The notes beneath the pieces were generated by a model. It made no database searches. It was not told the DNA's origin and worked only from the letters and a program-made list of their open reading frames with translations. From Rosettibacter firmus (lineage in GTDB: Bacteria > Bacteroidota > Ignavibacteria > Ignavibacteriales > Melioribacteraceae): a stretch of DNA of 64,000 nucleotides. The position numbers were made by a program, and so were the translations under genes. Of this stretch, positions 4,991 to 61,805 are shown one piece after another (within the stretch, counting starts at the first letter, position 1; every line of letters starts with the position of its first letter). The DNA lies in contig NZ_JAYKGJ010000001.1 in the NCBI RefSeq assembly GCF_036860695.1, positions 1,302,001 to 1,366,000 on the forward strand, read 5' to 3'.

Positions 4991-6217
4991 TTAGACCGAA
5001 AGCTTACTTTCTACTTCTACTTTTTGCATTACTCTATTTATTGTTTTATAAGGTAGACCATAAATTTTGATAAATCCTTCCGAAGCAGAATGATCGAATT
5101 GATCTTCTGCAGTATAAGTTGCTAATGCTGGATCGTATAATGAATATGGAGAAGTTCTACCAGAAATTTTTATTGTTCCTTTATAAAGTTTAAGTTTTAC
5201 CAGACCAGTTACTTTTTCCTGTGTTTTATCAACAAATGCCTGAAGTGCTTCTCGTAGTGGAGTAAACCATAATCCATTATAAACTAAGTTAGCATATTCC
5301 TGCGATATTAATGTTTTAAAATGCATAACAGATTTTTCAAGTGTAATTCTTTCTAATTCCTTATGTGCAAAATGAAGAATTGTTGCAGCAGGAGCTTCAT
5401 AAACTTCTCTTGATTTAATTCCAACCAATCTATTTTCAATCATATCGATTCTTCCGATAGCATTTCTTCCACCAATTTCATTTAATAATTGAACAAGAGA
5501 AATCGAATCCATTTCTTTACCATTTACACTTTTTGGTATTCCAGATTCAAATTCAATAGTAACAAGTTCTGGTTGATCTGGTGCATTTTCTGGCGATACT
5601 GTATGAATGAAAGCATCTTCTGGTGGTTCTACCATTGGATCTTCCAGCACACCACATTCAATTGCTGTTCCCCATATATTATCGTCAATAGAATAAGGAT
5701 TACTTTTTGTGGCAGCAACAGGAATATTATTTGCGATTGCGTAGTCAATTTCTTCTTCTCTTGATTTAAATTCCCATGTTCTTAAAGGAGCAATACATTT
5801 TATATCTGGAGCTAAAGCACCTACAGAAACTTCAAAGCGAACCTGATCGTTTCCTTTTCCTGTACAACCATGAGCTACCATAGTAGCATTTTCTTTTCTT
5901 GCAATTTCAACAAGAGCTTTTGCAAGTAATGGTCTGCCTAACGAAGTTGCCATTGGATAAGCACCTTCATATAGTGCACCAGCTTTAAGAGCAGGGAAAG
6001 CATATTCTTCAAGAAATTCTCTGGTTAAATCTTCAATATATACTTTCGAAGCACCAGATTTAAGTGCTTTTTCTTCAAGGCCTTCTAATTCTTTTGATTG
6101 GCCAAGATTGCCAGTAAAAGTAATTATCTCGGCATCATAATTCTTTTTAAGCCAGTGAACCATAACCGAAGTATCGAGTCCACCTGAGTATGCAACAACT
6201 ATTTTTTGCTTGCTCAT
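4991..6217 (-). CDS. argG: Argininosuccinate synthase
   Basis: It joins citrulline and aspartate using ATP to give argininosuccinate. The N-type ATP pyrophosphatase P-loop AYSGGLDTS is at residues 9-17, and the motifs [14 protein letters not shown] (about 115-128) and [11 protein letters not shown]-like [16 protein letters not shown] near the end are characteristic. The length of 408 residues is typical. It lies one base from both argR upstream and argH downstream, which fits a single polycistronic message. Regulation is expected through the ARG boxes at 9.8 kb. Confidence 0.97.
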
Positions 6218-6218
6218 A

Positions 6219-6680
6219 TTACTTAATCCCTAATATTGTTTTTAATTGCTCAGTTACTTTTTTTATATTTTTAATTGTTTTAGGAACAACGATAATAGTA
6301 TCATCGCCAGCAATTGTACCAAGAATTTCAGGATCGTTTTGTTTATCAATATAAACAGCAACACCAGAAGCTCTTCCAAGAAAAGTTTTAACAAGAACAA
6401 CACATTCATTAGATTCAATAGAAATAATTTCTTCTGCTATATGTGTACGAATTGCTCCATCACCACCTTCTGAACCTAATTTATAAACAAGTCCTTCAGA
6501 AGTAGGAACACGCACCACTCCAAGTTCAGATAAATCTCTTGATAATGTTGCCTGAGTAACTTTAATACCTTTCTGTTTAAGTATTTTTACAAGTTGTGTT
6601 TGATTATAAATATTTTGTGAAGAAATAAGTGTTTTAATTAAAGCATGACGTTTTTGAATATCTTCTAATTTTCTACTCAT
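6219..6680 (-). CDS. argR: Arginine repressor ArgR/AhrC
   Basis: This 153-residue regulator has the usual two-domain build. Residues 1-75 form the winged helix (Q-T-Q-L-V-K-I-L... [13 protein letters not shown], the ArgR recognition helix). Residues 80-153 form the hexamerisation and arginine-binding domain, with the arginine-binding [11 protein letters not shown] motif at about 119-129. With bound arginine it binds palindromic ARG boxes. Its place inside the arg operon, between argB and argG, means that it is autoregulated together with its targets. The likely operators are the two boxes in front of argC. Confidence 0.95.
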
Positions 6681-6704
6681 AAATCACCATTAATATTTTT
6701 TAAT

Positions 6705-7553
6705 TTATTCTGATACTATTTCAGTTCCTACACCTTCGGTTGTAAATATTTCCAGTAAAAGAGCATGTTGAATTCTTCCATCAATTATATGAACTTTTTG
6801 AACGCCCGAATTAAGTGCTGAAATAGCAGAAGTTACTTTAGGAATCATTCCACCACTAATTGTTCCATCAGAAATATACTTTTCTGCATCACTTTTTGTA
6901 AGGTGCGAAATTAAATTATTACCAGCTTTAACACCTTCAATATCTGTCATATAAACCAGCTTTGTTGCATGTAAAGCTCCAGCAATGCTACTGGCAGCTA
7001 TGTCTGCATTCACATTATAAATAGTTCCATCTGCATCAACACCAATAGGAGCTATTACAGGTAGATATCCATCTCTCAATAAGTTTTTTATGAATGATTC
7101 ATTAATGCTTGTAATTTCACCAACAAGTCCAAGATCTTCTTTGTTATATTTCTTAACATTAACCAGACCAGCATCTATTCCGCTTATTCCTACTGCTCGA
7201 CCACCGTAAATATTAATTCTTCTAACAATATCTTTATTTATTAAACCTGCAAGAACCATCTGAACAACATCTCGAGTTTGTTCATCTGTATAGCGTTGAC
7301 CATTAACGAAAGTAGTTTTTAAATTTAATTTTTCTGATAGTGCTGTAATTTCTTTTCCACCTCCGTGTACAACAATGACATTAATACCAATTTTTCTGAG
7401 CAAAGTAACATCCTGAGCAACCATTTGTTTTAATGATTCATCATGCATTACTGCTCCACCATACTTAATCACAAAAATTGCATTTTCAAATTGTTGAATA
7501 TATGGCAGAGCTTCTACCAGAACATCTTCTTTTCTGTAGTTTGGTTGTGTCAA
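6705..7553 (-). CDS. argB: Acetylglutamate kinase (TTG start)
   Basis: It phosphorylates N-acetylglutamate, the second step of the pathway and often the arginine-feedback step. Residues 30-40 hold the ATP-binding FVIKYGGAVM and about 61-70 hold the VVHGGGKEI motif of the amino acid kinase fold. Length (282) is normal. The start is a TTG that overlaps the argJ TGA as TTGA, a four-base overlap equivalent to the usual ATGA. A GGGAG sequence sits 10 bases upstream, and the next ATG would remove the first 35 residues, so the TTG is accepted. The unusual start may reduce translation relative to neighbours. Confidence 0.95.
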   Translation of the reverse strand: MTQPNYRKEDVLVEALPYIQQFENAIFVIKYGGAVMHDESLKQMVAQDVTLLRKIGINVIVVHGGGKEITALSEKLNLKTTFVNGQRYTDEQTRDVVQMVLAGLINKDIVRRINIYGGRAVGISGIDAGLVNVKKYNKEDLGLVGEITSINESFIKNLLRDGYLPVIAPIGVDADGTIYNVNADIAASSIAGALHATKLVYMTDIEGVKAGNNLISHLTKSDAEKYISDGTISGGMIPKVTSAISALNSGVQKVHIIDGRIQHALLLEIFTTEGVGTEIVSE

Positions 7554-8773
7554 GTTCTATAACTCCCATTAATTTTTACATATTCTTCAGAAAAATCACA
7601 CGTCCAGCATGTAGCCGTTCCATTTCCAAGATTTAATTTCAATAAAAGATTTATCTCATCTGGTTTTAGCAATTTATTAGCTTCTTTTGCCGTAAGAGCA
7701 ACTTTATAATTTTGCATTAATACTGGTTGTCCATTGATTATAATTTCAAACTTAGCTGGATCGAATTCAACACCTGAATATCCAACAGCTGCAATAATTC
7801 TTCCCCAATTTGCATCTTCTCCGTGAATGGCTGTTTTAACAAGTGGAGACAATGCAACTGTTTTTGCAGCTTTTAAGGCTTGTTCGTCATTTAAAGCCCC
7901 TTCAACATTTATTTCCACCAATTTAGTTGCACCTTCGCCATCTTTCACTATATCAATTGAAAGTTTTTTAAGAATTTCATAAAGATTTTCATAAAAAATT
8001 CTATAAGCCTCGGTATCAGCAAAAATTGTTTCTATACCTGACATACCATTAGCCAGTGCAATTACCATATCGTTTGTGCTTGTATCACCATCAACAACAA
8101 TTCTATTAAAAGTTTTATCAGTAATTTCTTTCAGCATTGTTTGAAAAGTATTTTTTTCAATTGCTGCATCGGTTGTAACAAAAGCCAGCATAGTTGCCAT
8201 ATTTGGATGAATCATTCCAGAACCTTTAGCTATACCTCCAATAGTTACTTCTTTACCATCAATTTGAAAGCTAACCGAAGCAGTTTTTATAAATGTATCT
8301 GTAGTTAAAATAGCTTCTGCAGGAGATTTATAATCATCATTATTCAAATGATGTACAATTTTTTTTATTCCAGCAGAAATTTTATCCATCGGTAGCAGTT
8401 CACCAATAACACCTGTAGAAGAAACAAAAACTTCTTCTGGTTTGATATTCAATTCTTCTGCTGTTAATACAGACATCATAACAGCATCTTTATAGCCCTG
8501 TTCTCCTGTACATGCATTAGCATTTCCACTGTTTATTATTATTGCTCTAAATTTTTCATTTTCCTGAAGATACTTTTTGCATAATAATACAGGAGCTGCT
8601 TGAACTTTGTTCTGAGTAAAAACACCTGCAGCGGTTGCAGGTACATCAGAAACTATTAAAGCTAAATCTTTTTTAAAACGCTTAATTCCGCAATGAATTC
8701 CAGCAGCTTTAAACCCTTTTGGGGCTATTACACCAGTTTTCATATCGATTGCTATTTCGCAAGTTTGTTCCAT
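7550..8773 (-). CDS. argJ: Bifunctional ornithine acetyltransferase / N-acetylglutamate synthase
   Basis: It transfers the acetyl group from N-acetylornithine to glutamate, closing the acetyl cycle. The self-cleavage motif KGSGMIHPNMATMLAF contains the Thr that becomes the N-terminal nucleophile of the beta subunit. The GVIGELLPMDKI segment earlier forms the oxyanion-hole region. The length of 407 residues is typical. The ATG at 8773 overlaps the end of argC by 22 bases and has AGGA nearby. Whether the enzyme is bifunctional or monofunctional cannot be read from the sequence. argJ implies a recycling acetyl pathway, but argD and argF are not in this window. Confidence 0.95.
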   Translation of the reverse strand: MEQTCEIAIDMKTGVIAPKGFKAAGIHCGIKRFKKDLALIVSDVPATAAGVFTQNKVQAAPVLLCKKYLQENEKFRAIIINSGNANACTGEQGYKDAVMMSVLTAEELNIKPEEVFVSSTGVIGELLPMDKISAGIKKIVHHLNNDDYKSPAEAILTTDTFIKTASVSFQIDGKEVTIGGIAKGSGMIHPNMATMLAFVTTDAAIEKNTFQTMLKEITDKTFNRIVVDGDTSTNDMVIALANGMSGIETIFADTEAYRIFYENLYEILKKLSIDIVKDGEGATKLVEINVEGALNDEQALKAAKTVALSPLVKTAIHGEDANWGRIIAAVGYSGVEFDPAKFEIIINGQPVLMQNYKVALTAKEANKLLKPDEINLLLKLNLGNGTATCWTCDFSEEYVKINGSYRT

Positions 8774-9786
8774 TTTATTAATCCTGTTTCTTGTGGAAAA
8801 CCAAATAATATATTCATGTTTTGAATTGCCTGTCCTGCAGCACCTTTAATTAAATTATCTATAGTTGAAAAAATTATTATTGAATTATCTTCAATTACTT
8901 TAAAACCAATATCACAAAAATTTGTATATGTAACATCTTTCATTTCGGGAACACTATCGTTTAATACTCGAATAAATGGTTTTGTTTCATAAGTACTGAA
9001 AAAAATATCTCTAACATTATTTTCATTAATACCATCTTTTAATTTAGCATTGATTGTTGTATAAATTCCTCTTGTTGCTGGTAAAAGATGTGGAACAAAA
9101 GAAAATTTTATTGAACGTTCTCCAAAAAATTCCAGATAATATTTTATTTCAGGAATATGTTGATGAACTCCAACTTTATAAGCTCGAACATTTTCATTTA
9201 CTTCGCTAAAAATCATGTTTTGAACAGCAGATTTTCCAGCTCCTGAAGTACCGCTGTATGATACTATATTCACATCAGAATTTTCAATAACATTATTCTT
9301 CAGTAAAGGTAAAATTGCCAGTAAAATACTTGTTGGATAACATCCAGGATTCGATATAATTTCTGCTTTTGAAATTGCATCTTCGTTCCATTCACTGAGT
9401 CCATAAACAGCTTTATCAAGAAGCTCAATAGCTAAATGTTCATGCTTATAATATTTTTTATAGTCATCAATGTTTTTCAGTCTGAAGTCGCCACCTATAT
9501 CAATCACTTTAATATTTTTATTGTAAGCAGCTTTTACAAATTCAAAAGCCTGACCAGAAGGAAGTGCAACAAACAATAAATCCAATCCATTCAATAACTC
9601 TTCTGAAAAACTATCTACTGTTAATGAAATTAATTTTCTTAACGAAGTATGAATCTCATCTATACGTAATCCAGCAGTAGATTGACCAAACAATCTCTTT
9701 ATATTCACTTCAGGATGGTTTAATAAAAGTCTAACCAATTCATAGCCAGAATATCCTGTAGCTCCAATTATTCCTACATTTATCAT
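8752..9786 (-). CDS. argC: N-acetyl-gamma-glutamyl-phosphate reductase
   Basis: It reduces N-acetylglutamyl phosphate with NADPH. GATGYSGYELVRLLLNHPEV at the N-terminus is the NADP-binding Rossmann loop and SNPGCYPTSI (about residue 130) contains the catalytic Cys. The reading frame extends upstream to 9840, but the extra residues run through the ARG box and promoter and lie before the conserved MINVGIIGATG start. The ATG at 9786 (344 aa, usual length) is therefore chosen. This is the first gene of argCJBRGH. Confidence 0.96.
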   Translation of the reverse strand: MINVGIIGATGYSGYELVRLLLNHPEVNIKRLFGQSTAGLRIDEIHTSLRKLISLTVDSFSEELLNGLDLLFVALPSGQAFEFVKAAYNKNIKVIDIGGDFRLKNIDDYKKYYKHEHLAIELLDKAVYGLSEWNEDAISKAEIISNPGCYPTSILLAILPLLKNNVIENSDVNIVSYSGTSGAGKSAVQNMIFSEVNENVRAYKVGVHQHIPEIKYYLEFFGERSIKFSFVPHLLPATRGIYTTINAKLKDGINENNVRDIFFSTYETKPFIRVLNDSVPEMKDVTYTNFCDIGFKVIEDNSIIIFSTIDNLIKGAAGQAIQNMNILFGFPQETGLIKWNKLAK

Positions 9787-9805
9787 AGTAACTTTCAAAT
9801 TAATG

Positions 9806-9839
9806 GTTATAATTATACACAAATATGCATAATTATGCA
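9806..9839 (-). promoter_or_regulatory. Two tandem ARG boxes (ArgR operator)
   Basis: TGCATAATTATGCA (9826-9839) is a perfect palindrome and fits the ARG box core TGNATWWWWATNCA at every position. GTTATAATTATACA (9806-9819) matches 12 of 14 positions. Centres are 20 bases apart, close to the 21-base arrangement used by ArgR hexamers. The pair lies 20-53 bases upstream of the argC ATG and covers the promoter. Confidence 0.88.
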
Positions 9840-9840
9840 A
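9812..9840 (-). promoter_or_regulatory. arg operon promoter overlapped by ARG boxes
   Basis: On the minus strand TTGCAT (9840-9835) and TATAAT (9817-9812) are spaced by 17 bases, a good -35/-10 pair. Each element falls inside one of the two ARG boxes, so ArgR bound here would exclude RNA polymerase. This promoter uses the general -35/-10 form rather than TAnnTTTG. Confidence 0.6.
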
Positions 9841-10133
9841 ATAATTTTATTGTAAAAATATCGGTCTGGAGTATCAATTATAGGATTATTACGTAGAAGT
9901 TAGATTCTTATTTGACAGACAAAATCATGAAACAATAAATTCTTTACATCAGGCAATTCTATAAAAATTATAACATCCCACACTGAATCATACTAAAATG
10001 CTTTCTCATTCTGAAACAACCTGTAATTATTAATAATTAATTTTTCTTCGATTTTGCGTTGAAATCGCAATTTTTTTGTGGCATTTCTATTGACATAACA
10101 AATACAAGCATTAATATAATTTTAGGAGAAAAA

Positions 10134-13100
10134 GTGTCTACATATCAATTAAAACCATACTTAAGATTACTGATTTTATTCTTCATCTTAGTTGGTTTTA
10201 CCAATAACTTGTTTGCTCAATTAAAAGGAATTAAGCAAACAACAAACTATACCAGCATAGCAAAAATTAGTGGAACTGCTGAGGGGGTGTCAGTTTCTTA
10301 TATAAACCCATATACAAATCAAAGTGTAAGTAATTTTGCAGGTACTTTTAAAGGTACTCTTAATTCTAATTCTGTTAAGTTTTATTGCATAGACTTACAA
10401 CATGGATTAGTTTACAATCAAGATTATTGGGACGAAGATTATACTTCATCCGAAATTACTTACATTCTAAACAACTATTATCCTTACAAAAACAATTACT
10501 CTGGACAATTAAGTGACATCAACAAAGAAGCTGCAGCCATTCAGATGGCTATCTGGCATTTTAGTGATGGAGTAAACCCCAATACAATTACGAATAATAC
10601 TATTAAATCCAGAACACTTGCTATAATATCCGATGCAAATGCAAACCATAACAATTATGCACCATTACAAACTTTATTAATTCTTCCAGCCAATCAATCT
10701 CTTTTGCAGAATACACCTGCTCAATTTGATATTTATGCATATGATATTAATGGTAATCCTGTCGAAGGAGTTTCACTACAAATTTCTTCATCTATTGGAA
10801 CATTAAGTTCAAGCTCTGGAACTACTGATAATAATGGTCATTTTGGACCTGTAACTATTACTTATAATGGAGTAGGCACAGCAGTAATTAAAGTAAAAGC
10901 AAAAGTTGATATTCCGCAGGGAACAAAATATGTTCATAAGACAAAACCAAATGATAAACAAAAATTAGTTTTAGCAACCCCTTCGTTCGATGAAAAAGAA
11001 GAGAATGCCAGTATAGAATGGTATTCCCCATCTGAGTGCGATTTAAGAGGATATGTAACATTTACACAGGGTGGTTGGGGTAGCTCTTCTAATAGCACAC
11101 CTGGAAAAATTAGAGATCTATATTTTAATACTGTTTTCCCGAATGGAATGACTGTTGGCGGGAACTATAAGATTACATTTACTTCTGCGAGTGCAATTAA
11201 AAATTATTTGCCAGATGGTGGAACTCCTGCTGTACTTACACAAAATTATTTAAATCCTACCACTGATATTAGTGTATTAGCTGGACAGATTACAGCATTA
11301 AAATTAAATGTATATTATAGTGCAGCGGGTTATCTGGGTACAAATCCAATCCCATTAGGAAATCTTGTAATTAACAATGGACCTTTTGCAGGATATACAG
11401 TAAATCAATTTCTATCCTTTGCTGAACAGGTTTTAGGCGGAGGAGATACCAATGGTTTTACTCTTTCTCAAATTAATGATGCTGCAACAGCCATCAATGA
11501 AAATTTTGATAACGGAACAGTTGACAGAGGTTATTTAATTTGTTTGCAAAAGGCTTCGTTGGGAGATAGAGTCTGGAAAGACCTTAACAAAAATGGTATC
11601 CAGGATGATGGTGAACCAGGTTTAGAAAATGTAACTGTCAAATTATTTGATTGTAACGATAATTTAATTTCTACAACTACTACAAATTCACAGGGTTATT
11701 ACTTATTCTCAAATCTTACTCCTGGTAGCTATTATGTACAATTCATTAATCCACAGGGTTATGTATTCACAAATCAGGATTCGGGAAACGATGATAATAA
11801 AGATTCTGATGCTAATATTAATACAGGAAAAACAATATGCACTACACTAACTTCTGGTGAGAATGATTTATCGTGGGATGCAGGTCTTTATGAAGAAACT
11901 GTTTGCCAGAATAAAATTGGTGATTTTGTATGGCACGATAAAAATGTAAATGGAATACAAGATTCAGGTGAACCAGGTATTGAAGGTGTTGTAATTGAAT
12001 TATGGCAGAATAATCAACTAATTGCCACTGCAACAACAAATTCTAATGGCAAGTATGAATTTGACAATCTCTTAAATGGAACTTATCAGATAAAATTAGC
12101 TGCATCAAATTTTGCAAGTGGTGGTGTTCTTGAAAGCAATGCAAAAACAAAATGGTATTCTACAAAGAAAGATCAGGGTAATAACGATAGTAAAGATAGC
12201 GATGCAAACATTAATGAATCTGTAACAGTAAATATAAATTGCTCGGATGACATTAGTATAGATTTCGGATTTTATAAAACCTGCGTTAGTGTATACAAGA
12301 CTGCAGATAAACAAACAGCTAAGCCTGGTGATGTAATTACATATACATTTACTGTAGAGAACTGTGGTGATATTACATTAAGTGGTGGAGTTGATTTTTA
12401 TGATGCATTAATCAATCCAGATGGAGATCATAAAATCAAAAATATCACTCCAGTTTTACCAGGAGAAACTAAATCATTTACAAAAACTTATACAGTTACA
12501 CAGAATGATTGTGGTGAATTAATCAATACAGTTAAAGCAGTTGGTCATCCAGTTGATGGTTCTGCTATAGTTGAAGATGAAGCTTTCACAACTGTACAAA
12601 TTGATTGTGAATTATCCTGTGTAACTGATTGGACTGCAGTGTTGGGTCCAGATTCAGCAATATGCGAATATGATGCAAAACCAATTACAATTAATGGAAC
12701 TGTTCATATAACACCAAATCCAGGCAAAGCATATTTGCAATTATCCTGGAGAATAGTTTATCCAAATGATGGTAGTGTTGATAATTCAACTCATTACCAA
12801 ACAATTTTAATTACTAAGGATACCACATTTTCTATTACAGCACAATGGCCAGGAATTCGTCCAGAAGATCAAATCGTTGAAATTCATTATGGAGTAAATG
12901 TACTTGACTGCAATGGAAATCCAATTAAAAATGGAATAGGCAGAGATTTGTACTGGTATCCATGGGTATGCCCACCTCCACAGGAAGAACCTGCAGAAGT
13001 AAGAATTGAAAAGTCTGTTGACAATCAAAATCCAAATTGTGGCGAACAAATTACATATACAATAAAAGTTACAAATGATGGCCCAAACAAAGCTAAAGGC

Positions 13101-15293
13101 ATTCAAGTAACTGATTTATTACCCCAGGGTTTGAATTATAATTCCAGTTCCACTTCACAGGGGGTATATGATTCAAATACGGGAATTTGGATTGTTGGTG
13201 ATCTGAATTCCCAAACTTTTGCAACTCTAACAATCAATGCAGTTGTAGATTGCGATCAGTTATATAATTCAATATTCGATTTAGGACCAGCTAAAGATTA
13301 TAATTTATTTGTAATCTATGATGTTGACCAACCATCTTCTGATACACAGGGAAAAGTTGCTGTTGGTAGAGATGCACATTTTGCTAATTATAGTATAGGT
13401 GATCAACTCCCACAAAATAGTGGAGATGTTTTAATTGTAGGACGAGATCTTATCTTCACAAGTGGTCATGTTAATGGAAATGTAGTTTATGGAAATTCAA
13501 CAAATCTGCCTCAACCTTCTGTAAGCATTAATGGTACTTTACGTCAGGATAGTCCAATTAATTTTGCAGCAGCAAAAACTTATCTCGAAAATCTATCAAC
13601 TAATCTTTCTAATTATACTGTAAATGGTACAGTAGATTTTCAATATGGTGGATTAACATTGACTGGAACCGATCCATTCCTGAATGTATTCAAAGTAAAT
13701 GGTTCGGATCTTTCAATTGCTAATAATGTTACAATTAATGCACCTAATGGCTCGGTAGTTCTGGTTAATATAAATGGAACAAATGTATCTTGGACAGGTG
13801 GTTTAACAGTCAATGGTACAAGCATTACAAATGTTTTATATAACTTTTACGAAGCTTCACAATTAACAATTCAAGGAATTGACATACGTGGTTCTTTACT
13901 GGCTCCAACTGCAGATATCAATTTCGCAAGTGGTGTAATTAATGGTCAGATGATTTGTAAATCATTAACTGGAATGGGTCAGATGAATTTAGCACCATTC
14001 ATTGGCAATATTCCATTTGAAAAAGAAATAACAAATATTGCATCAATAACTGCTGTGTTAACAACCGATCCGAATCCAGATAATAATTCTTCAAGTGCAA
14101 CAATTACAGTTTCAACTTTAGATGAAACCAATAATGGTGATAACTCAGATAATCAAAATAACTGGCAATATTTAAATGGATTTTCTAATGGCGAAATTGT
14201 TTATGCAATGGCTTATGATGAATCTGGAAATATTTATGCAGGTACATGGGGCGGTAATATCTATAAATCAAGTAATGGCGGACAATCATGGTCAAAGATA
14301 AATAACAATATGAATGTTGGATTTATCTGGTCATTAAATATTCATAATGGATTTATATTTGCCGCAACTGAACAGGGTGTATTCAAATTCGATGGATTTA
14401 ACTGGACTTTAACTTCGTTATCAAATATCGATGTTCATGCTCTTGCTTCAGATGGTAACTCATTGTATGCTGGTACTTGGGGACTTGGAGTTTATGTTTC
14501 GAACGATAATGGTTCAACATGGAGCGAAATGAATAATGGTCTTGGATTTAATTTAGTTATAAATGCTCTTACAATTCATTCAAATACATTATACGCTGCA
14601 AGTTATGGTGGTGGAGTATTCAAGTACGAAAATTCATTATGGACAAAATTAAATGTTGGCTACGATTTCGTCTGGACAATCACATCAAATTCAAATGGCT
14701 TATATGCTGGAACTTATGGAGATGGATTATATCGTTCAACAGATAATGGTAATACATGGACAAAAGTATCTAACCTGAATGCTCCTTTCATTTATTCAAT
14801 AGCAGTAAATTTAAGTGGTAAAATTTATGTTGCATCGTGGACAAGTGGAGTATTTGAATCTACAGATAATGGTAATACCTGGAATTCACTTGGAATGGGT
14901 GGATTTGGTGTAAGTGCTCTGATTGTTTCAAGAAATAATGATAATGTTTATGTCGGCACTAAAGAAGGAAAGATTTATTTAAGTAAACGAGTTGCTGGTG
15001 TAACTTCTGTTGAATCTGAAGAAATTCCAACTAAATTCGAATTAAGTCAGAATTATCCAAATCCTTTCAATCCAGTAACAACAATTAAATTTGCAGTGCC
15101 AGAAAAAGGTAGATACACACTTAAAGTATATGATATACTTGGTCAGGAAGTTGCTACATTGTTCGACGATGAAATGAATGCAGGAATACAAAAAACAATG
15201 TTTAACGGAAGCAATTTAAGTTCAGGAGTTTACATTTATAGATTAATTGGAAATAATGTTAACATCAGTAAGAAAATGATTTTGATGAAGTAA
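10134..15293 (+). CDS. Giant thioester-domain adhesin with SdrD-B repeats, choice-of-anchor A domain, beta-propeller and T9SS signal
   Basis: The start chosen is GTG 10134, five bases after AGGAG and directly before a signal peptide (LRLLILFFILVGFTNNLFAQ); the frame extends 25 codons further up without a ribosome site. Of 1719 residues, 60-145 form a TQXA/thioester domain with FYCID (Cys85) and AIQMAIWHFSDG (Gln137), the pair that forms an internal thioester in Gram-positive adhesins. Next comes an Ig-like repeat (about 180-255), and two SdrD-B domains at about 470-590 and 592-715 (GDRVWKDLNKNGIQDDGEPG and GDFVWHDKNVNGIQDSGEPG, Ca-binding type). DUF11-like domains cover about 718-825 and 952-1326, the second interrupted by a choice-of-anchor A domain (about 1045-1298). 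BNR-like propeller repeats (YAGTWG..., about 1342-1618) and a T9SS type A sorting domain (1624-1719) complete it. It is a surface adhesin; the covalent-binding role is inferred from the Cys-Gln pair. Confidence 0.85.
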   Translation: MSTYQLKPYLRLLILFFILVGFTNNLFAQLKGIKQTTNYTSIAKISGTAEGVSVSYINPYTNQSVSNFAGTFKGTLNSNSVKFYCIDLQHGLVYNQDYWDEDYTSSEITYILNNYYPYKNNYSGQLSDINKEAAAIQMAIWHFSDGVNPNTITNNTIKSRTLAIISDANANHNNYAPLQTLLILPANQSLLQNTPAQFDIYAYDINGNPVEGVSLQISSSIGTLSSSSGTTDNNGHFGPVTITYNGVGTAVIKVKAKVDIPQGTKYVHKTKPNDKQKLVLATPSFDEKEENASIEWYSPSECDLRGYVTFTQGGWGSSSNSTPGKIRDLYFNTVFPNGMTVGGNYKITFTSASAIKNYLPDGGTPAVLTQNYLNPTTDISVLAGQITALKLNVYYSAAGYLGTNPIPLGNLVINNGPFAGYTVNQFLSFAEQVLGGGDTNGFTLSQINDAATAINENFDNGTVDRGYLICLQKASLGDRVWKDLNKNGIQDDGEPGLENVTVKLFDCNDNLISTTTTNSQGYYLFSNLTPGSYYVQFINPQGYVFTNQDSGNDDNKDSDANINTGKTICTTLTSGENDLSWDAGLYEETVCQNKIGDFVWHDKNVNGIQDSGEPGIEGVVIELWQNNQLIATATTNSNGKYEFDNLLNGTYQIKLAASNFASGGVLESNAKTKWYSTKKDQGNNDSKDSDANINESVTVNINCSDDISIDFGFYKTCVSVYKTADKQTAKPGDVITYTFTVENCGDITLSGGVDFYDALINPDGDHKIKNITPVLPGETKSFTKTYTVTQNDCGELINTVKAVGHPVDGSAIVEDEAFTTVQIDCELSCVTDWTAVLGPDSAICEYDAKPITINGTVHITPNPGKAYLQLSWRIVYPNDGSVDNSTHYQTILITKDTTFSITAQWPGIRPEDQIVEIHYGVNVLDCNGNPIKNGIGRDLYWYPWVCPPPQEEPAEVRIEKSVDNQNPNCGEQITYTIKVTNDGPNKAKGIQVTDLLPQGLNYNSSSTSQGVYDSNTGIWIVGDLNSQTFATLTINAVVDCDQLYNSIFDLGPAKDYNLFVIYDVDQPSSDTQGKVAVGRDAHFANYSIGDQLPQNSGDVLIVGRDLIFTSGHVNGNVVYGNSTNLPQPSVSINGTLRQDSPINFAAAKTYLENLSTNLSNYTVNGTVDFQYGGLTLTGTDPFLNVFKVNGSDLSIANNVTINAPNGSVVLVNINGTNVSWTGGLTVNGTSITNVLYNFYEASQLTIQGIDIRGSLLAPTADINFASGVINGQMICKSLTGMGQMNLAPFIGNIPFEKEITNIASITAVLTTDPNPDNNSSSATITVSTLDETNNGDNSDNQNNWQYLNGFSNGEIVYAMAYDESGNIYAGTWGGNIYKSSNGGQSWSKINNNMNVGFIWSLNIHNGFIFAATEQGVFKFDGFNWTLTSLSNIDVHALASDGNSLYAGTWGLGVYVSNDNGSTWSEMNNGLGFNLVINALTIHSNTLYAASYGGGVFKYENSLWTKLNVGYDFVWTITSNSNGLYAGTYGDGLYRSTDNGNTWTKVSNLNAPFIYSIAVNLSGKIYVASWTSGVFESTDNGNTWNSLGMGGFGVSALIVSRNNDNVYVGTKEGKIYLSKRVAGVTSVESEEIPTKFELSQNYPNPFNPVTTIKFAVPEKGRYTLKVYDILGQEVATLFDDEMNAGIQKTMFNGSNLSSGVYIYRLIGNNVNISKKMILMK

Positions 15294-15386: not shown

Positions 15387-15656
15387 TTATGAATTTTTTA
15401 ATGAATTGATTGCACTATTAATTTTTTCGATTAACTCTTTCTCGCTAATATTTTCGTATCTGATTCTTGCTGTCTTTATAAATACTTCTGGTGGATCTCC
15501 TTCCCCTTTCATATACCTGTAAAGATTAAATCCAAGTCTGTATCTTTCATTCATAATTGGTATGTATTCTTTCAACGATTCTGCTATGTTATAACATTTT
15601 TTTTCAATTGAATCTTCTGGAAAATATTTTATTCCAGGTGGTGGTAAAGTTGTCAT
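15387..15656 (-). CDS. Hypothetical protein, 89 aa
   Basis: I do not recognise a family. The protein is soluble and charged, starts MTTLPPPGIKYFPEDSIEKK, and is predicted to be mostly helical after residue 20. It has no signal peptide or membrane segment and a single cysteine. It stands alone, leftward, between the adhesin gene and the LPS core genes. A weak purine-rich stretch (AAGAGA) lies upstream of the ATG. Residue composition and the clean stop favour a real gene over a chance frame, but this is not certain. Confidence 0.55.
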   Translation of the reverse strand: MTTLPPPGIKYFPEDSIEKKCYNIAESLKEYIPIMNERYRLGFNLYRYMKGEGDPPEVFIKTARIRYENISEKELIEKINSAINSLKNS

Positions 15657-35870: not shown

Positions 35871-37961
35871 TTAACGATAAAAGAGATGCCGATTATCTAC
35901 AATATCAGCTTCTTTTTTAATTTCCTGCAGCCACATATTGAGTAAATAATTTTTCTTATACTGAGCAAGTTCTCTTCTAATTCCAAGCTTTTGTAATTCA
36001 AAAGTATTAGGATCGAACTTAGTACGATATCTTACATTTATCAAATAAACACCCAGGTTACCTTTAACCGGTTGTGACCATTTATTCAATTCTCCTTTAA
36101 GCGAGTAATCTGCAAAAGCATATTCCAACCCAAGATTAGGGATAGAACCTGCAGAAGTAAATTCTGAAGTAGAATCAACCCGGGCTTTATTCCACACAGT
36201 TAATGCTAAATTTTTATCTCCATTATCACCAAGTTTAGCACGAATTTGTTTAGCAATCGACAATGCTTTTTGAATCTTTTTCTCTTGAATAACTTTTGCT
36301 CTTACAAAGTTTTTAACTTCTTCAAACTTCTGGAAACCAGCTTTCTTTGCATCAGAAATTTTAACTACAACATAACCTGCAGGAACTCGGAATACATCGC
36401 TTACATCACCCAGACTATTTTCAAATGCCCATTTAACCAGTGCTTTATTTACTCCCAATCCAGGAATTGCAACTACATCTTCTGTAAAAGGTGGAGTTTC
36501 AATAACATCGTATTTCATCATTTTAGCTTCAGATTCAAAACCATTTTCTTTTGCTACGTAAGCAAAATCTGATGCATCTTGATAAAGTTTATCGAGTGTT
36601 GAAGCTGAGATTTGTATTTTATTAGTAATCTTTTCTATAACAAAATCTTCATTTAATTTACCAGTAACTTTTATTATATGATAACCATAAGTTGTCTTAA
36701 CAGGTTTTTGAATAACACCTACTTTGCCTTTGAAACAAGCATCTTCAAATTCTTTAACCATCTGGCCTTTAGAAAACCAGCCCAGGTCGCCACCATTTGC
36801 TGCAGAACCAGGATCGTTTGATTTTGATTTTGCAACTGTGGCAAAATCGGCTCCTTTAATTAATTCATTATAAATTTGATTTGCTTTTTCTAAATCTTGT
36901 TTATCATTTCCTGTAGAACGAATCAAAATGTGAGAAGCACGAACAACTTCATTTTTAGATTTAACCCTATCGATCAACTTATAAATTGTATATCCTTCGT
37001 AAGTGGCAATTGGTCCAATTACATCACCTTTATTTGATTTAAGTAAAATATCTCTTACCTGTACAGGAAGTGCTGTAATTGAAATTGTATCTCTTCTATA
37101 AGGTTGATCTGAATATATCTGAACATAAGATTTAAATGAAGCAGTATCACTTTTAATTTTAGCTACAATAGCTTCAAGATTATTTTTAATTCCTATAGAA
37201 TCACTTTTAGATGGCTGACGGCGGAAAAGTACATACTTAAGTTTTCTGGTAGGTTCAACTTTATAATCTTCTTTATGTTTTTCATAATAATTTTTTAATT
37301 CTTCTTCAGTGACTTTAATTTCGTTATCTGGTATAGAGCCAGTGCTAACAAGAACATAATCGGCACGCATTTTAATATTTTGCCTGATGAAATGCTCTTT
37401 AACTTCTTCGTCGCTAATAACAATTGAAGCAAAAAGATAATCCTGAAGTTTTTGTTGTTGTAATTGTTCTCTAATTAAATCTTCATAATAAAGAACAATT
37501 TCTTTATTTCTTGGATCTCGAAGAGCCTGTTCGTAGAGTTGTCTATTGAAAAATCCAGTTGAATCAGTAAATTGTCTTCTCAATTCTTCTGGTGGATTTG
37601 GTCCAAGGAGAGCTTCTCTAACTTCGTCATCGGTAACAACAATTCCAAATTCTTTTATTTTTTTCTGAAGTAATTTTTGAGTGACGATTGCATCCCATAC
37701 CTGATCTCTAAAGAAATCCATCTGGCTTTCGTCAATTTGCTGTCCAGTCATTCTTTCTTGATTCTGTCGTGCTCGTTCAACCATATTCGAAAAATCCTGG
37801 TAAGAAATTTCCTCTCCATCAATGGAACCCACATTTTGAGATCTTTGACCTAAAAATTCAAGAACTCTTGAATCTGATATAACCATAAAAAGAACAAATA
37901 AACCACCCACAAGAAGAATGAACCACGGAGCTAAACTCCTCATTCGGGCCATCATCGCCAT
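35871..37961 (-). CDS. Membrane-anchored peptidyl-prolyl isomerase, PpiD/SurA-type
   Basis: A single N-terminal helix (APWFILLVGGLFVLFMVI) anchors a periplasmic protein of about 696 residues. A SurA-N-like chaperone domain (SIDGEEISYQDFSNMVERARQ) is followed by a parvulin domain (VRASHILIRSTGNDKQDLEKANQIYNELIKGADFATVAKSKSNDPGSAANGGDLGWFSKGQM) and a second, degenerate isomerase region. Such proteins assist folding of exported and outer-membrane proteins. The frame extends to a TTG at 37970, but the ATG at 37961 lies nine bases after GGAGG and is chosen. A terminator follows. Confidence 0.92.
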   Translation of the reverse strand: MAMMARMRSLAPWFILLVGGLFVLFMVISDSRVLEFLGQRSQNVGSIDGEEISYQDFSNMVERARQNQERMTGQQIDESQMDFFRDQVWDAIVTQKLLQKKIKEFGIVVTDDEVREALLGPNPPEELRRQFTDSTGFFNRQLYEQALRDPRNKEIVLYYEDLIREQLQQQKLQDYLFASIVISDEEVKEHFIRQNIKMRADYVLVSTGSIPDNEIKVTEEELKNYYEKHKEDYKVEPTRKLKYVLFRRQPSKSDSIGIKNNLEAIVAKIKSDTASFKSYVQIYSDQPYRRDTISITALPVQVRDILLKSNKGDVIGPIATYEGYTIYKLIDRVKSKNEVVRASHILIRSTGNDKQDLEKANQIYNELIKGADFATVAKSKSNDPGSAANGGDLGWFSKGQMVKEFEDACFKGKVGVIQKPVKTTYGYHIIKVTGKLNEDFVIEKITNKIQISASTLDKLYQDASDFAYVAKENGFESEAKMMKYDVIETPPFTEDVVAIPGLGVNKALVKWAFENSLGDVSDVFRVPAGYVVVKISDAKKAGFQKFEEVKNFVRAKVIQEKKIQKALSIAKQIRAKLGDNGDKNLALTVWNKARVDSTSEFTSAGSIPNLGLEYAFADYSLKGELNKWSQPVKGNLGVYLINVRYRTKFDPNTFELQKLGIRRELAQYKKNYLLNMWLQEIKKEADIVDNRHLFYR

Positions 37962-38122
37962 ATAATTCAACCTCCGTTTAAAGAAAACATTAAATTTTAG
38001 GAAGTTAATTTAGATACACTGTATAACAAAAGCAATGAAGAAGAATGTTTATTTTATTAAGAATCCATGTAAATATCTGGAAGGTAAAAATAAGTTTTGT
38101 TTAGAAATGCATTAAGAAATTA

Positions 38123-50007: not shown

Positions 50008-53007
50008 ATGAAGTCAAATTTTTACAAATCTTTCTACTTACTAATCTTTTTCACTTCACAATTAATTTTAGCACAGGGTTCCGGAAGTATCAAAGGAAAA
50101 GTAATAGACAGTAATACAAAAGAACCATTAGTAGGTGCAAATGTTGTAATTGTTAACACAAGTCTTGGTGCAGCAACAGACTATGATGGAAAGTTTGTAA
50201 TTCATAATGTACCTACTGGTAAAAGAGTAATAAAAATTTCATATATCGGTTACAAAACAAAAGTTATTGAGATTGATGTTGGTACAAAAATAATTGATTT
50301 ACAGGATATTCCCTTAGAACAACAAGTAGCAATAGAACTTGAAGTAGTTGTAACTGCACAGGCAAGAGGGCAACGTGATGCTATAAACAAACAATTATCA
50401 TCAAACACTATTAAGAATGTAGTTTCTGCAGAAAGAATTAGAGAATTACCAGATGAAAGTGCTGCTGCAGCATTAAGCCGTTTACCAGGTATGTCGTTAA
50501 TGGATGGAGATAAAATTGTAGTAAGAGGCATACAGGCAAAACAAAATGTAATATTAATGAATGGAATCCAATTACCATCAACTGATATGAATGATCGTTC
50601 AGTTAATCTTGGTTTTATTTCATCAAATATGCTTTCTGGTATAGAGGTAATTAAAGTACTAACACCAGATATGGATGCAAATGCAATTGGTGGTGTGGTA
50701 AACTTAAGAATTATGGAAGCACCTGAAAACTTTCATTTCGATGTACTTTCACAAGGAACATATAATAGTCAAGATAGAACATTACCAAACGATAATTATA
50801 AATTCTGGGTAAGTGCAAGCAACAGATTTTTTAATAATAAATTAGGCATCTTCGTTCAAGGAAATATTGATAGAGTAAACGCTGGTGGAGATATAACAAA
50901 CGCAGGATATCAGAAGGGTGTTGATACTATGGGTTATGGATTAGCTGAATATAGAATGTTAGATTTTGCTTTTTCTGACGAAGAAAATATTGTTACAAAT
51001 ACTGGTGGTAGTGTTGTTATTGATTACAAACTACCAAATGGAAAAATCTTTTTACAAAATACTTTAGCACATACAGTAAATGACATGGCAAGATATAGAA
51101 CTGAATTTGATTTTGCCGAAAACAGCTTATTCTACACTCTGAATCGCGATAAACATAATAAAGAATTACTTATTAATGCACTTCAAGCAGAATATAACTT
51201 TGGAAAATTTAAAACAGAATTAAGTTTATCACATTCTTACTCGGATAAAAATACAGATATAAGATATGGCGACCCTGGACTGGAATTCGGTTTCCGTGAA
51301 TCTAAAGGACAACCATTCGTAAAGTATGAAAATGGTAATATGGTTTATGTAACTTATGTACGTGAACGTGATTACATGACACCGGACGATGTTTATAAAA
51401 TTCAACTTGATCCCGATGCCTGGAAACGTAGCCCAATTTATGGATGGGCTGGTATGCGTTCTGAAGCATTCAAGCAGAATTTGTATACTGCTAAACTTGA
51501 TTTATCCTACCCCATTAGTATTACTCAGGCTATTTCTGGTACAATTAAATTGGGTGGAAAGTATGACTTTTCTAAAAGAAATAATAATGTTGAAGAAAGT
51601 TATCATCGAGTAGGTGATCCTGATTTTTATAATGCTGTAAGCAATTTCTTCACTAATAAAGTTATTAGCAATTCCTCTCCTCTAATGTTTGCCGATATTA
51701 GAAATTATGATTACAAAAGAGGCGATTATTTTCTTGATGGTACTTACGACTTTGAATACGCAATAGATAAAAAACTTATGGATTCGTTTTTGCCTAAATC
51801 TGTAAGTGGCTGGTTAAAATCAAGACATCGTGCAAAATCCGAAAGAGATGATTTTGAAGGAAAAGAAACTTTTAAAGCAAGCTACATAATGGGTGAATTT
51901 AGTATTGGTTCAAAATTCAATGTAATATTAGGTGCAAGATACGAACACTTTAATAGGAATTACAAAGCTAACTTTTTCTATGTAACACATGCTGTTGATG
52001 GTGATGGAGTTCTTTACGATACCTTAAACAATGCTAATCGTAACGAAGAAAATATATTCCCAAATTTACAACTACGCTATAAAATTACTGATTGGGCTGA
52101 TTTAAGAGCTGCTTATTCAAAATCAATCTCAAGACCTGATTACTTAGCTCTCTTGCCCAATATTTATTATGAACCAGGTGGAGGAGCTTCGGCCGGTAAT
52201 CCTAATCTTAAACCTACTGTAACAACAAATTACGATTTAGCTATGTATTTCTATAGTAATAAACTGGGTTTGTTAACAGTTACCGGATTTTATAAAAAAT
52301 TAAAAGATGTTTTCTTCCAGACACAATTTTATTATCAAAATATTAAATCATGGAACGTATGGTTCCCAGATTCAGCACTATGGAATGCTTTGAAACTTCA
52401 AGCTCCTAATAGATCTCAATTAGTTACATCTTATGTAAATAATCCAAACCCAGGTTATCTTCGTGGATTTGAAATAGAATGGCAAACAAATTTCTGGTAC
52501 CTGCCAAAACCATTTAATTCTCTGGTACTAAATATAAACTACACAAGAACCTGGTCTAAAATGGATTATCAAGTTATCGAAAATATTGACTCGGTTGCTG
52601 GTTCAGGTATTAGACAACGTCATTATTATCTTACAAAATCAAGAGTTTATTCAGGCAGATTGCTTCATCAAGCCGATCACATTCTCAATATTGCAATTGG
52701 GATAGACTATAAGGATTTCTCAGGAAGAATTTCTTACAACTTAAAAGATGCTGTAACTTCATATGTTGGTGTAAGACCTGAAGAAGATCAATTAACTGGC
52801 ACTATTCACAGATGGGATCTAACTTTACAACAAAAACTTCCTATTAAAGGATTCAGTATTTTCTTCAATGGAGTGAATTTATTCCGCAAACCAATAAAAA
52901 CATATAGAGATTTTAGAAGACCAAACCAGACAGAAATAATTTCAAATCTGGTTTCAACAAGTTATTATCCTACATTTTATGAAATTGTACTAAGATACAG
53001 TCTTTAA
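50008..53007 (+). CDS. TonB-dependent outer-membrane receptor with CarboxypepD_reg-like domain
   Basis: A signal peptide ends around residue 22 (LIFFTSQLILAQ). A carboxypeptidase-regulatory-like domain follows (about 25-110, GSIKGKVIDSNTKEPLVGANVVIVNTSLGAATDYDGKFVI). The plug domain has RIRELPDESAAAALSRLPGM and VVRGIQAKQNVILMNGIQLPS (about 145-195), with a barrel to the C-terminus ending in YSL. The type (RLPG...RG plug) resembles the TonB receptors of Xanthomonas/Caulobacter carbohydrate-uptake loci rather than SusC. No SusD gene follows. It opens the polysaccharide cluster, so a glycan substrate is inferred. Confidence 0.9.
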   Translation: MKSNFYKSFYLLIFFTSQLILAQGSGSIKGKVIDSNTKEPLVGANVVIVNTSLGAATDYDGKFVIHNVPTGKRVIKISYIGYKTKVIEIDVGTKIIDLQDIPLEQQVAIELEVVVTAQARGQRDAINKQLSSNTIKNVVSAERIRELPDESAAAALSRLPGMSLMDGDKIVVRGIQAKQNVILMNGIQLPSTDMNDRSVNLGFISSNMLSGIEVIKVLTPDMDANAIGGVVNLRIMEAPENFHFDVLSQGTYNSQDRTLPNDNYKFWVSASNRFFNNKLGIFVQGNIDRVNAGGDITNAGYQKGVDTMGYGLAEYRMLDFAFSDEENIVTNTGGSVVIDYKLPNGKIFLQNTLAHTVNDMARYRTEFDFAENSLFYTLNRDKHNKELLINALQAEYNFGKFKTELSLSHSYSDKNTDIRYGDPGLEFGFRESKGQPFVKYENGNMVYVTYVRERDYMTPDDVYKIQLDPDAWKRSPIYGWAGMRSEAFKQNLYTAKLDLSYPISITQAISGTIKLGGKYDFSKRNNNVEESYHRVGDPDFYNAVSNFFTNKVISNSSPLMFADIRNYDYKRGDYFLDGTYDFEYAIDKKLMDSFLPKSVSGWLKSRHRAKSERDDFEGKETFKASYIMGEFSIGSKFNVILGARYEHFNRNYKANFFYVTHAVDGDGVLYDTLNNANRNEENIFPNLQLRYKITDWADLRAAYSKSISRPDYLALLPNIYYEPGGGASAGNPNLKPTVTTNYDLAMYFYSNKLGLLTVTGFYKKLKDVFFQTQFYYQNIKSWNVWFPDSALWNALKLQAPNRSQLVTSYVNNPNPGYLRGFEIEWQTNFWYLPKPFNSLVLNINYTRTWSKMDYQVIENIDSVAGSGIRQRHYYLTKSRVYSGRLLHQADHILNIAIGIDYKDFSGRISYNLKDAVTSYVGVRPEEDQLTGTIHRWDLTLQQKLPIKGFSIFFNGVNLFRKPIKTYRDFRRPNQTEIISNLVSTSYYPTFYEIVLRYSL

Positions 53008-53109
53008 TTACTAACAACTCAATTATGGAGGTATTATATGCAATAAATATTTTATCTCAATTTATGTTACACATAATTAATTCACTAAATTAATAAATAG
53101 GAGGTAACC

Positions 53110-54846
53110 ATGAGGAACCTTTCATTTACTCTTTTATTGGCTTTAATCTTTTGTGCTAATAGTTTAATGGCACAATATTTAAGCGATTATATTGAAGAAT
53201 TTAGAGGAGATACTGCTGTTGTTAAACCTGGAGACAACACTCTTTATGGAGCAATTGTTTATGATACATTAGCAACAAATGGAAGAGTATATCTTTTGAA
53301 AAAAAATGAGGTTTATAGCCTTGCAAGTAATCCGACCACAAGCGATAAAATTCATACTGTTATTGTAGGTGAAGATAGCAGACGTCTTGTAAATAACAAT
53401 GATCCTGATTCACATCCACCTGTAATTTGTGGCTCAGGTACAAATACTGGCGGTATAAATTATGGCGGTGATGTTACTGTTAAAAATGTTAATATGGTAC
53501 CTGCTTCTGCAGCAAATAACCTTGGTTGGACTTTCTTCTGGGGTTCAAAAGCTGGCAGTACCGTTACTCTCGAAAATTGTTTGTTCGAACGTACAAGATG
53601 GGTCTTCGTTGCTTCAAATCAAGTTGAAGGTACAAAACTCTATATCAAAGATTGCTACTTTGTAAACATGAGTGGACAACCCTGCAGAAGAAATGGTGGC
53701 GTTTATGATAATGTTGAACATAACACTGATGTAATCTGGGTTGAAAATAGTACTCATGTAATGGCACAGGGAATGTTATATAAATTCAGAAATTATCCAA
53801 TTAAGGAATTATTCTTTAATCATAATACTTTTGTTAATTGTGCCGGCCCAGTATTTGAAAATCAGGGTTATGTAAGTAACATGATTGTTGCTAATAATAT
53901 TTTTGTTAATAGCAATATGCAACCATATTGCCCATCATTAGATTTAAGTGAAACTGATCTGGATTTGTTACCAACTGGACTTATCAACGTCAGAGATTTA
54001 CCACCAGATTATGAACAGGTAGATAGAAAAATTCTGGTTACAAATAATAATGCTTACTGGGATAGTTATTTTGCAGATATGCATCAGGTTCTTAAAGAAA
54101 GAAAAACAAATAATACTGATCAGTGGTTCTCCCAAATGATCAAAATGAATTCACGTACTCAGGCCATGTTCGACGACAATCAAAAATATCCATACCTTGT
54201 TGAAGGAAACTGGTATTCTGAAGATCCACAATTTACAGATCCACAAGATCTGTTCAGTGATGAAATGAAAGCCCATATTAGAGAATTTGTTTTAAATACT
54301 GTTGATACAACCAATAGTACAGCTGTATTGAATTTATGGAGAAAGGTTTATAGCGAAGCTGAATTTCCACATGTTTCTGATTGGCCAATCCCTGTTAATC
54401 TTTCATACAAAAATTCAACTTTGTTAAAAGCTGGTTTGGGTGGTTTCCCACTTGGAGATTTAAACTGGTTCCCTGAGAAAAAAGCTCAATGGTTAGCACA
54501 AAGAGATGCTGAAATAGCAGCTCTAAAAGATGCTTTGAACAAAGGTCAATTGCCCACAGATGTTAAGAGTGATGTAGTACCAACTAATTTCTATGTATAT
54601 CAAAACTATCCTAATCCATTTAACCCATCCACTACAATCTCTTTTGAATTGCCACAATCCGGTAATGTTGTAGTAAAAATTTATAACGTAATGGGTCAGG
54701 AAGTAAAAACATTACTAAACGGATTTAGAACAGCTGGTTATAATGTAGTTAATTTTGATGCTTCAGATTTATCAAGTGGAGTTTATATTTATAATGTTAA
54801 TTTCAATGGTCAGAGTATTTCAAAGAAAATGGTTCTTATGAAATAA
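53110..54846 (+). CDS. Secreted right-handed beta-helix protein with T9SS sorting domain
   Basis: A signal peptide (LSFTLLLALIFCANSLMAQ) precedes a repeated beta-strand region (about 100-280) with N/V-rich rungs: NYGGDVTVKNVNMVP, STVTLENCLFERTRW, TKLYIKDCYFVN, LFFNHNTFVNCAG, NMIVANNIFVNSN. This is the pectate-lyase-like parallel beta-helix pattern. A helical region follows (about 340-480), and a type A T9SS sorting domain ends it (YQNYPNPFNPSTTISF...ISKKMVLMK). It may be a lyase, hydrolase or glycan-binding surface protein; no catalytic residues are evident. AGGAGG precedes the ATG, and a strong terminator follows. Confidence 0.8.
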   Translation: MRNLSFTLLLALIFCANSLMAQYLSDYIEEFRGDTAVVKPGDNTLYGAIVYDTLATNGRVYLLKKNEVYSLASNPTTSDKIHTVIVGEDSRRLVNNNDPDSHPPVICGSGTNTGGINYGGDVTVKNVNMVPASAANNLGWTFFWGSKAGSTVTLENCLFERTRWVFVASNQVEGTKLYIKDCYFVNMSGQPCRRNGGVYDNVEHNTDVIWVENSTHVMAQGMLYKFRNYPIKELFFNHNTFVNCAGPVFENQGYVSNMIVANNIFVNSNMQPYCPSLDLSETDLDLLPTGLINVRDLPPDYEQVDRKILVTNNNAYWDSYFADMHQVLKERKTNNTDQWFSQMIKMNSRTQAMFDDNQKYPYLVEGNWYSEDPQFTDPQDLFSDEMKAHIREFVLNTVDTTNSTAVLNLWRKVYSEAEFPHVSDWPIPVNLSYKNSTLLKAGLGGFPLGDLNWFPEKKAQWLAQRDAEIAALKDALNKGQLPTDVKSDVVPTNFYVYQNYPNPFNPSTTISFELPQSGNVVVKIYNVMGQEVKTLLNGFRTAGYNVVNFDASDLSSGVYIYNVNFNGQSISKKMVLMK

Positions 54847-54873
54847 TATTCTGGTTGTAATATTAATTATTAT

Positions 54874-54908
54874 CAGACGGAGCAATTTTTTGCTCCGTCT
54901 GGTTTTTT
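54874..54908 (+). terminator. Strong terminator after the beta-helix gene
   Basis: CAGACGGAGCA (54874-54884) pairs perfectly with TGCTCCGTCTG (54891-54901), an eleven-pair stem with loop ATTTTT, followed by GTTTTTTAA. It separates the receptor and beta-helix genes from the downstream parvulin gene. Confidence 0.92.
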
Positions 54909-54953
54909 AAAAGATATATTTCTAACTTTTTAATATTCTCGGGATTAACAATA

Positions 54954-56711: not shown

Positions 56712-56804
56712 AATTTCCTGGAGATATAAAACCTGTTTTTCATACCTGTTTTTTAAAATAATACTTAAACGCATAATCCAAGCATATCTAATTAAGGAGG
56801 CAAA

Positions 56805-59351: not shown

Positions 59352-59397
59352 TAAAATTCTTAATTGATATGTTTTTCTATTTCCAGAGCATTTAATA

Positions 59398-61734: not shown

Positions 61735-61805
61735 CATATTAAATACATACAAAAATTTTTACCTGCAAAAAATATAATGATTAAACAATTCTTAATGGGA
61801 GAAAA

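Follow-up and report, generated by a model that had tools for sequence, protein, structure and literature searches.

Most of the thioester domains (TEDs) characterised to date come from a host or pathogen context. In the founding survey they occurred "exclusively in Gram-positive bacteria", with an LPXTG anchor "almost always" present in TIE proteins (Walden et al. 2015, PMC4450167). The bond joins the cysteine of a [YFL]C motif to the glutamine of a later beta-strand motif, PhiQ-zeta-PhiPhi, while another glutamine, in a helix motif TQxxPhiW, touches the backbone of the cysteine in solved TEDs and is dispensable for the bond by mutagenesis (PMC4450167; Miller et al. 2018, PMC6194298). As calculated from residue numbers, cysteine and glutamine are 129-153 residues apart in class I and, in class II, 171 apart in SaTIE, 204 in EfmTIE86 and 188 in the pLS20 adhesin (PMC4450167, PMC6194298, PMC8092201). 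In the last of these the glutamine was placed by modelling, and the cysteine is needed for function (PMC8092201). Two further systems bear on the gene described here: DUF11, recognised as the isopeptide domain CLIPPER with a Lys-Asp-Asn triad (PMC12617251), and the type IX secretion system (T9SS), for which processing and anchoring of cargo by PorU have been described in Bacteroidota (PMC10202324).

The window analysed here is a stretch of 64,000 nucleotides from Rosettibacter firmus (Ignavibacteriales; contig NZ_JAYKGJ010000001.1, positions 1,302,001 to 1,366,000). One of its genes likely encodes a long fibrillar surface adhesin that is exported by the T9SS, carries a class II-like thioester domain at its tip and captures its ligand covalently. 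In the literature searched we found no paper on the combination of a TED with the T9SS. Databases already label such sequences PF08341, so the sequences themselves are known and only undescribed as far as we searched.

RESULTS

The gene and its product

One long open reading frame spans 10059-15293, its longest form beginning with TTG at 10059. The GTG at 10134, chosen as start by an earlier sequence-only reading of this DNA, has an AGGAG Shine-Dalgarno sequence a few bases upstream (at about 10121-10126) and opens a Sec-type leader that runs to ...NNLFA, so the 1719-aa form is the likely protein and the reading frame proposed earlier, 10134-15293, can be kept. All residue numbers are counted from this GTG (Table 1).

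Table 1. Features of the adhesin gene, in window coordinates
Feature	Position	Strand	Basis
Whole gene, 1719-aa T9SS-exported thioester-domain adhesin (predicted)	10134..15293	+	ORF, domain profiles, sequence
Sec-type signal peptide, residues 1-28 (...FTNNLFA, before Q)	10134..10217 (next domain from 10218)	+	sequence; boundary inferred
Thioester domain, class II-like, residues ~29-301, including inserted Ig-like sandwich	10218..11036	+	PF08341, Big_1, homology to Streptomyces/Embleya TEDs
Cys85, predicted thioester cysteine, [YFL]C motif FYCID	10386..10388	+	invariant 40/40, 75/75, 34/34
Gln137, TQxxPhiW-type helix motif AIQMAIW, probably not the bond-forming Gln	10542..10544	+	invariant 75/75; role from PMC4450167, PMC6194298
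Ig-like (Big_1-type) sandwich between helix 3 and the Gln strand, residues 196-256	10719..10901	+	Big_1 matches
Gln276 (KQKLVLATP), predicted thioester-forming glutamine	10959..10961	+	invariant 40/40; aligned with HSQTLI / KSQTQI of Gram-positive TEDs
Conserved unannotated ~170-aa domain, CDLxGxxTxTQGGWGS..., residues 302-471	11037..11546	+	alignment of relatives
Two SdrD_B domains, stalk	11553..12275	+	PF17210 E=8e-69, two stretches; lower end of second approximate
DUF7507 (CLIPPER_2-type) stalk domain, residues 718-813	12285..12572	+	Pfam
DUF11/CLIPPER domain, first part, residues 956-1042, with Lys960 and Asp994	12999..13259	+	Pfam, alignment
pAdhesive_15 / choice-of-anchor A putative adhesive domain, residues 1050-1285, inside the DUF11 domain	13281..13988	+	PF20597 E=3e-55; TIGR04215 E=8e-59
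Asn1301, predicted isopeptide partner of Lys960, with Asp994 catalytic	14034..14036	+	triad alignment; PMC12617251
Repeated AGTWG/BNR-like stretch, probably beta-propeller	14175..15005	+	weak BNR/Beta-prop matches, NF045728 below cut-off; limits approximate
T9SS type A C-terminal sorting domain	15054..15281	+	PF18962 and TIGR04183 over cut-offs

A thioester domain by profile and motif

Pfam TED (PF08341) matches residues 83-169 with 48.5 bits against a cut-off of 22 (E=1.3e-12), and 40/40 family members match it as well; the NCBIfam TQXA model (TIGR03934) gives 26.0 bits, under its cut-off of 30.4. Both motifs on which the sequence-only reading had relied are present, FYCID with Cys85 as the [YFL]C-Phi-zeta cysteine motif and AIQMAIWHFSDG with Gln137. 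However, this two-motif pattern also arises in 24 of 2000 shuffled copies of the protein (~1%) and is by itself modest, weak evidence; the claim is carried by the much stronger profile matches, by which the window protein holds a genuine thioester domain.

The bond-forming glutamine

Four residues, Cys85, Gln137, Trp141 and Gln276, are invariant in 40 TEDs that PF08341 picked out of this genome and related ones. The PF08341 match stops ~100 residues short of Gln276, so the selection of this set is not biased toward that residue. The same four are invariant in a second set (75/75), which is less independent, since the helix motif and QKLVLATP were among the patterns used to gather it. In the window protein the helix motif reads IQMAIW, with I in place of T, and the strand motif KQKLV agrees with PhiQ-zeta-PhiPhi except at the first Phi, where this protein has K and relatives have Y, K or other residues. 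Spacing between Cys85 and Gln276 is 191 residues, and 189-205 across the 75 TEDs. Conservation and motif context make Gln276 the best candidate and the most likely thioester partner of Cys85. Another glutamine with a fitting motif, Gln179 (LQTLL), was rejected, as the Gln is kept in only 12/40 family members.

Class of the domain and its Gram-positive kin

Between helix 3 and the Gln strand the domain bears an Ig-like insert, whose Big_1 match is under the Pfam cut-off in the window protein and found in 37/40 family members. In the alignment with Cpa-TED2, a ~24-residue segment at the site of the class I alpha-0 helix is missing from the family profile. Both class-defining indels, the insert before the Gln strand and the absence of alpha-0, thus point to a class II-like TED. 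No class II chain was matched in our sequence and profile search of PDB sequences, and profile-profile comparison with pLS20-type TEDs gave no alignment.

Gram-positive diversity was sampled through plasmids, of which tblastn with the window TED returned one weak match, in Embleya, to a protein whose C-terminus is a LAKTG sortase-type motif. Used as a query, this protein led to a Streptomyces protein annotated as 'Cys-Gln thioester bond-forming surface protein' that is over the strep_LAETG and TQXA cut-offs. Both of these proteins are hit by an HMM built from the 75 TEDs (E~2e-13 at Z=1e6), the matches covering hmm positions 47-264 and 29-266, and its alignment to the two actinomycete TEDs places the Cys, the helix Gln and Trp, the Ig insert and the terminal Gln in register. 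When a core profile without the Ig part was searched against 177,635 PDB sequences, the top three matches were the TED structures 5dcq, 4c0z and 5a0l, with only 5dcq individually near significance (E=0.0036). A wider profile including the two actinomycete sequences ranked Cpa-TED2 (4c0z) best at E=1.1e-5, with its YCFNL under YCID. Several other PDB matches were intimin/invasin-type Ig domains, aligned to the insert. These alignments support the view that the window TED belongs to the same family as those of the sortase-anchored proteins.

The stalk and a second adhesive domain

The SdrD-B repeats noticed earlier are confirmed as two SdrD_B domains, while the DUF11/DUF7507 domains, pAdhesive_15 and the propeller-like region had gone unmentioned. 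The unannotated domain at residues 302-471 occurs in 23/34 relatives and only once in the window genome; Cys302 and Cys470 are either both present or both absent among the 34, a co-occurrence that suggests a disulfide. In the DUF11 domain, Lys960 and Asp994 precede the pAdhesive_15 insert and Asn1301 follows it. The alignment of relatives has K/D/N at these positions in 31/34 and K/E/N in two, the N being kept in 34/34. Taken from alignment position and the published description of the family, this triad predicts that the adhesive insert would be clamped by a Lys960-Asn1301 isopeptide bond. No solved CLIPPER structure was matched when the joined DUF11 query was searched against the PDB.

Export and envelope

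Where TIE proteins usually have a C-terminal LPXTG sortase anchor, the window protein lacks one and has a T9SS sorting domain (48 bits), which the earlier reading had correctly placed at the end and which proves to be of type A. The genome holds 91 Por_Secre_tail matches, a full-length SprA (1081 bits) and two C25 peptidases, so that signal peptide, type A CTD over the cut-off and translocon, as expected of T9SS type A cargo, are found together. The architecture is general among relatives: a T9SS-type tail ends 59/59 Ignavibacteriales-type ORFs that are complete at the 3' end (translations inspected), and a Pfam scan of 34 full-length relatives gave TED and Por_Secre_tail in 34/34 each and pAdhesive_15 and DUF11 in 33/34 each. 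Genes for heptosyltransferase II and KDO-transferase lie directly downstream of the adhesin gene, which supports a diderm, LPS-bearing envelope.

Distribution

A PF08341 search found TEDs in 36/58 genomes of the same genus, family or order, and in only two of the several hundred genomes taken from elsewhere in the phylum, one match being weak (E=1e-4). Melioribacter, Stygiobacter and Ignavibacterium are the named relatives, besides other Ignavibacteriales, and they come mostly from free-living settings, for example sediment, groundwater or hot springs. Melioribacter sp. SKW195 is the nearest, at 78% over the TED and 84% over the full protein. The cultivated Stygiobacter electus has relatives of the gene as well (L057 and L090). 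Several genomes have two or three TED paralogues; Stygiobacter contig MHAZ01000006.1, for example, carries two different TED genes about 10 kb apart (L062 and L091). No TED relatives were found in viral contigs and phages. A TED in an Anaerolineae (Chloroflexota) MAG (L096, 4129-5796) is nested within the Ignavibacteriales TED tree, and its protein has a C-terminal hydrophobic tail and no T9SS domain. Transfer accompanied by a switch of anchor may explain this, and is more probable than a binning error because the tail differs from those of the Ignavibacteriales proteins.

Neighbourhood

Among 79 related loci the neighbouring LPS genes are kept only in the closest, so the adhesin gene is outside any conserved operon and offers no operon-based function. 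Upstream and divergent from it is a run of arginine biosynthesis genes on the minus strand (argC-argJ-argB-argR-argG, 4991-9840), and an 89-aa minus-strand ORF (15387-15656) separates it from the heptosyltransferase gene. Farther away, at 50008-63341, a TonB-dependent receptor, a GH9 glycoside hydrolase and two T9SS-tailed proteins, one of them a fungal-type glucuronyl esterase, stand in a row that is likely a lignocellulose-degradation group; a protein with PPIC-type rotamase domains (54954-56711) lies within it, and a separate SurA/PpiC-like gene is found at 35871-37970. Plant material is a plausible adhesion surface in view of this lignocellulose-type group, which lies 40 kb off and has no link to the adhesin gene.

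DISCUSSION

The protein would be made and used as follows. During the folding in the periplasm that follows Sec export, Cys85 and Gln276 would lose ammonia to form the internal thioester, with the glutamine coming from beyond the inserted Ig-like sandwich, and DUF11 would probably lock itself by the Lys960-Asn1301 isopeptide around the pAdhesive_15 insert. The type A CTD would then direct the folded protein to the T9SS (SprA) for export, and a PorU-type C25 peptidase would probably cut and anchor it, an anchoring that we assume for Ignavibacteriales by analogy. Displayed on the stalk at the surface, the thioester could react with an attacking amine (or hydroxyl) group on a specific ligand, leaving a covalent, shear-resistant bond. 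We infer the proximity of Cys85 and Gln276 from sequence, as we infer bond formation, anchoring and covalent capture of the ligand. Formation of the Cys85-Gln276 thioester seems to us very likely; covalent capture of a foreign ligand we rate lower.

The thioester might instead form for covalent crosslinking of cells to each other or to matrix in mats or biofilm, or react with the cell's own surface, and not serve for attachment to foreign surfaces. The mostly free-living settings of the relatives (hot springs, groundwater, sediment) fit this use, as does the pLS20 TED, which acts in cell-cell contact during conjugation (PMC8092201). However, the stalk and the second adhesive domain fit either use, and we regard such a role as possible but rather unlikely. 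It is improbable that the domain is a relic, its fold kept for structure or non-covalent binding with the thioester absent or soon hydrolysed: some relatives do live at high temperature, where thioesters would hydrolyse faster, yet both bond residues are absolutely conserved while the rest of the domain drops to about 40% identity.

The pairing in the sequence-only reading, a Cys85-Gln137 thioester in a domain of about 150 residues, is not borne out and we consider it very improbable. Gln137 is conserved in 75/75 sequences, just like Gln276, and the TQxA-type motif around it gave the NCBI domain its name; in solved TEDs, however, the bond is made by the later strand Gln, and the corresponding helix Gln, which touches the backbone of the Cys, can be dispensed with (PMC4450167, PMC6194298), and here Gln276, in a Q-zeta-Phi-Phi context, aligns with the terminal Gln of Gram-positive TEDs. 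It should be noted that a construct of the first 150 residues, as had been suggested for modelling, would not contain Gln276 and would wrongly refute the thioester idea. What does stand of that reading is the pairing of a thioester domain with another export route, since a TED with a T9SS tail is found in an LPS-bearing, free-living lineage. That Cys85 serves a disulfide, metal or lipid attachment is hardly credible: the protein has 18 cysteines, but Cys85 is the sole Cys of the TED in 64/75 sequences, which makes a conserved disulfide unlikely, the next one, Cys302, is missing in 11/34 relatives while Cys85 stays, and Cys85 is far from the signal-peptide cleavage site.

With the Cys85-Gln276 thioester at the tip of a T9SS-exported adhesin as the preferred reading, we lean, with some reserve, towards a wider one: covalent thioester adhesins may be a standing feature of a Gram-negative order, in which a thioester made in the periplasm would survive T9SS transport in a folded protein and attach free-living cells covalently to one another, to biomass or to particles, while a second adhesive domain would sit clamped in an isopeptide-locked stalk domain. 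If this is true, order-wide TEDs in free-living diderms would mean that covalent adhesion is more general as a surface chemistry, and the TED tip would have had three partners: sortase, the T9SS and a C-terminal hydrophobic tail, the last in a single Chloroflexota MAG. It also poses the question whether a reactive thioester can form in the periplasm and pass the outer membrane intact.

Among known systems, the Gram-negative fibrillar adhesins with CLIPPER (DUF11) stalks and Por_Secre tails (PMC12617251) share with the window protein the T9SS tail and a DUF11 stalk domain, which in the window protein is of isopeptide type by prediction, whereas we found no mention among them of the pairing of an N-terminal TED with that tail. 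Class I TEDs (SfbI, FbaB, Cpa-TED2, CpTIE) share the core by profile match and the Cys and TQxxPhiW motifs, but have alpha-0, no sandwich insertion and a Cys-Gln distance of 129-153. The Streptomyces and Embleya LAETG/LAKTG proteins (L142 and L141) have TED homology over nearly the full length, with the Ig insert and key residues; unlike the window protein of 1719 aa with its T9SS tail, they are shorter (461 aa in Streptomyces), sortase-anchored and from Gram-positive actinomycetes. Class II TEDs (BaTIE, SaTIE, EfmTIE86 and p34/TIEpLS20 of pLS20) are alike in the N-terminal position behind a signal peptide, the YCID-type Cys motif, the beta-sandwich insertion ahead of the Gln strand, the lack of alpha-0 and a stalk with isopeptide-type domains (predicted in the window protein), and their Cys-Gln distances of 171-204 compare with 191 in the window protein. 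They differ in being Gram-positive and mostly sortase-anchored by LPXTG, where the window protein has a T9SS tail, and in the insert, which is Big_1-like only in the latter, the sequences being too distant for the pLS20 profile to align.
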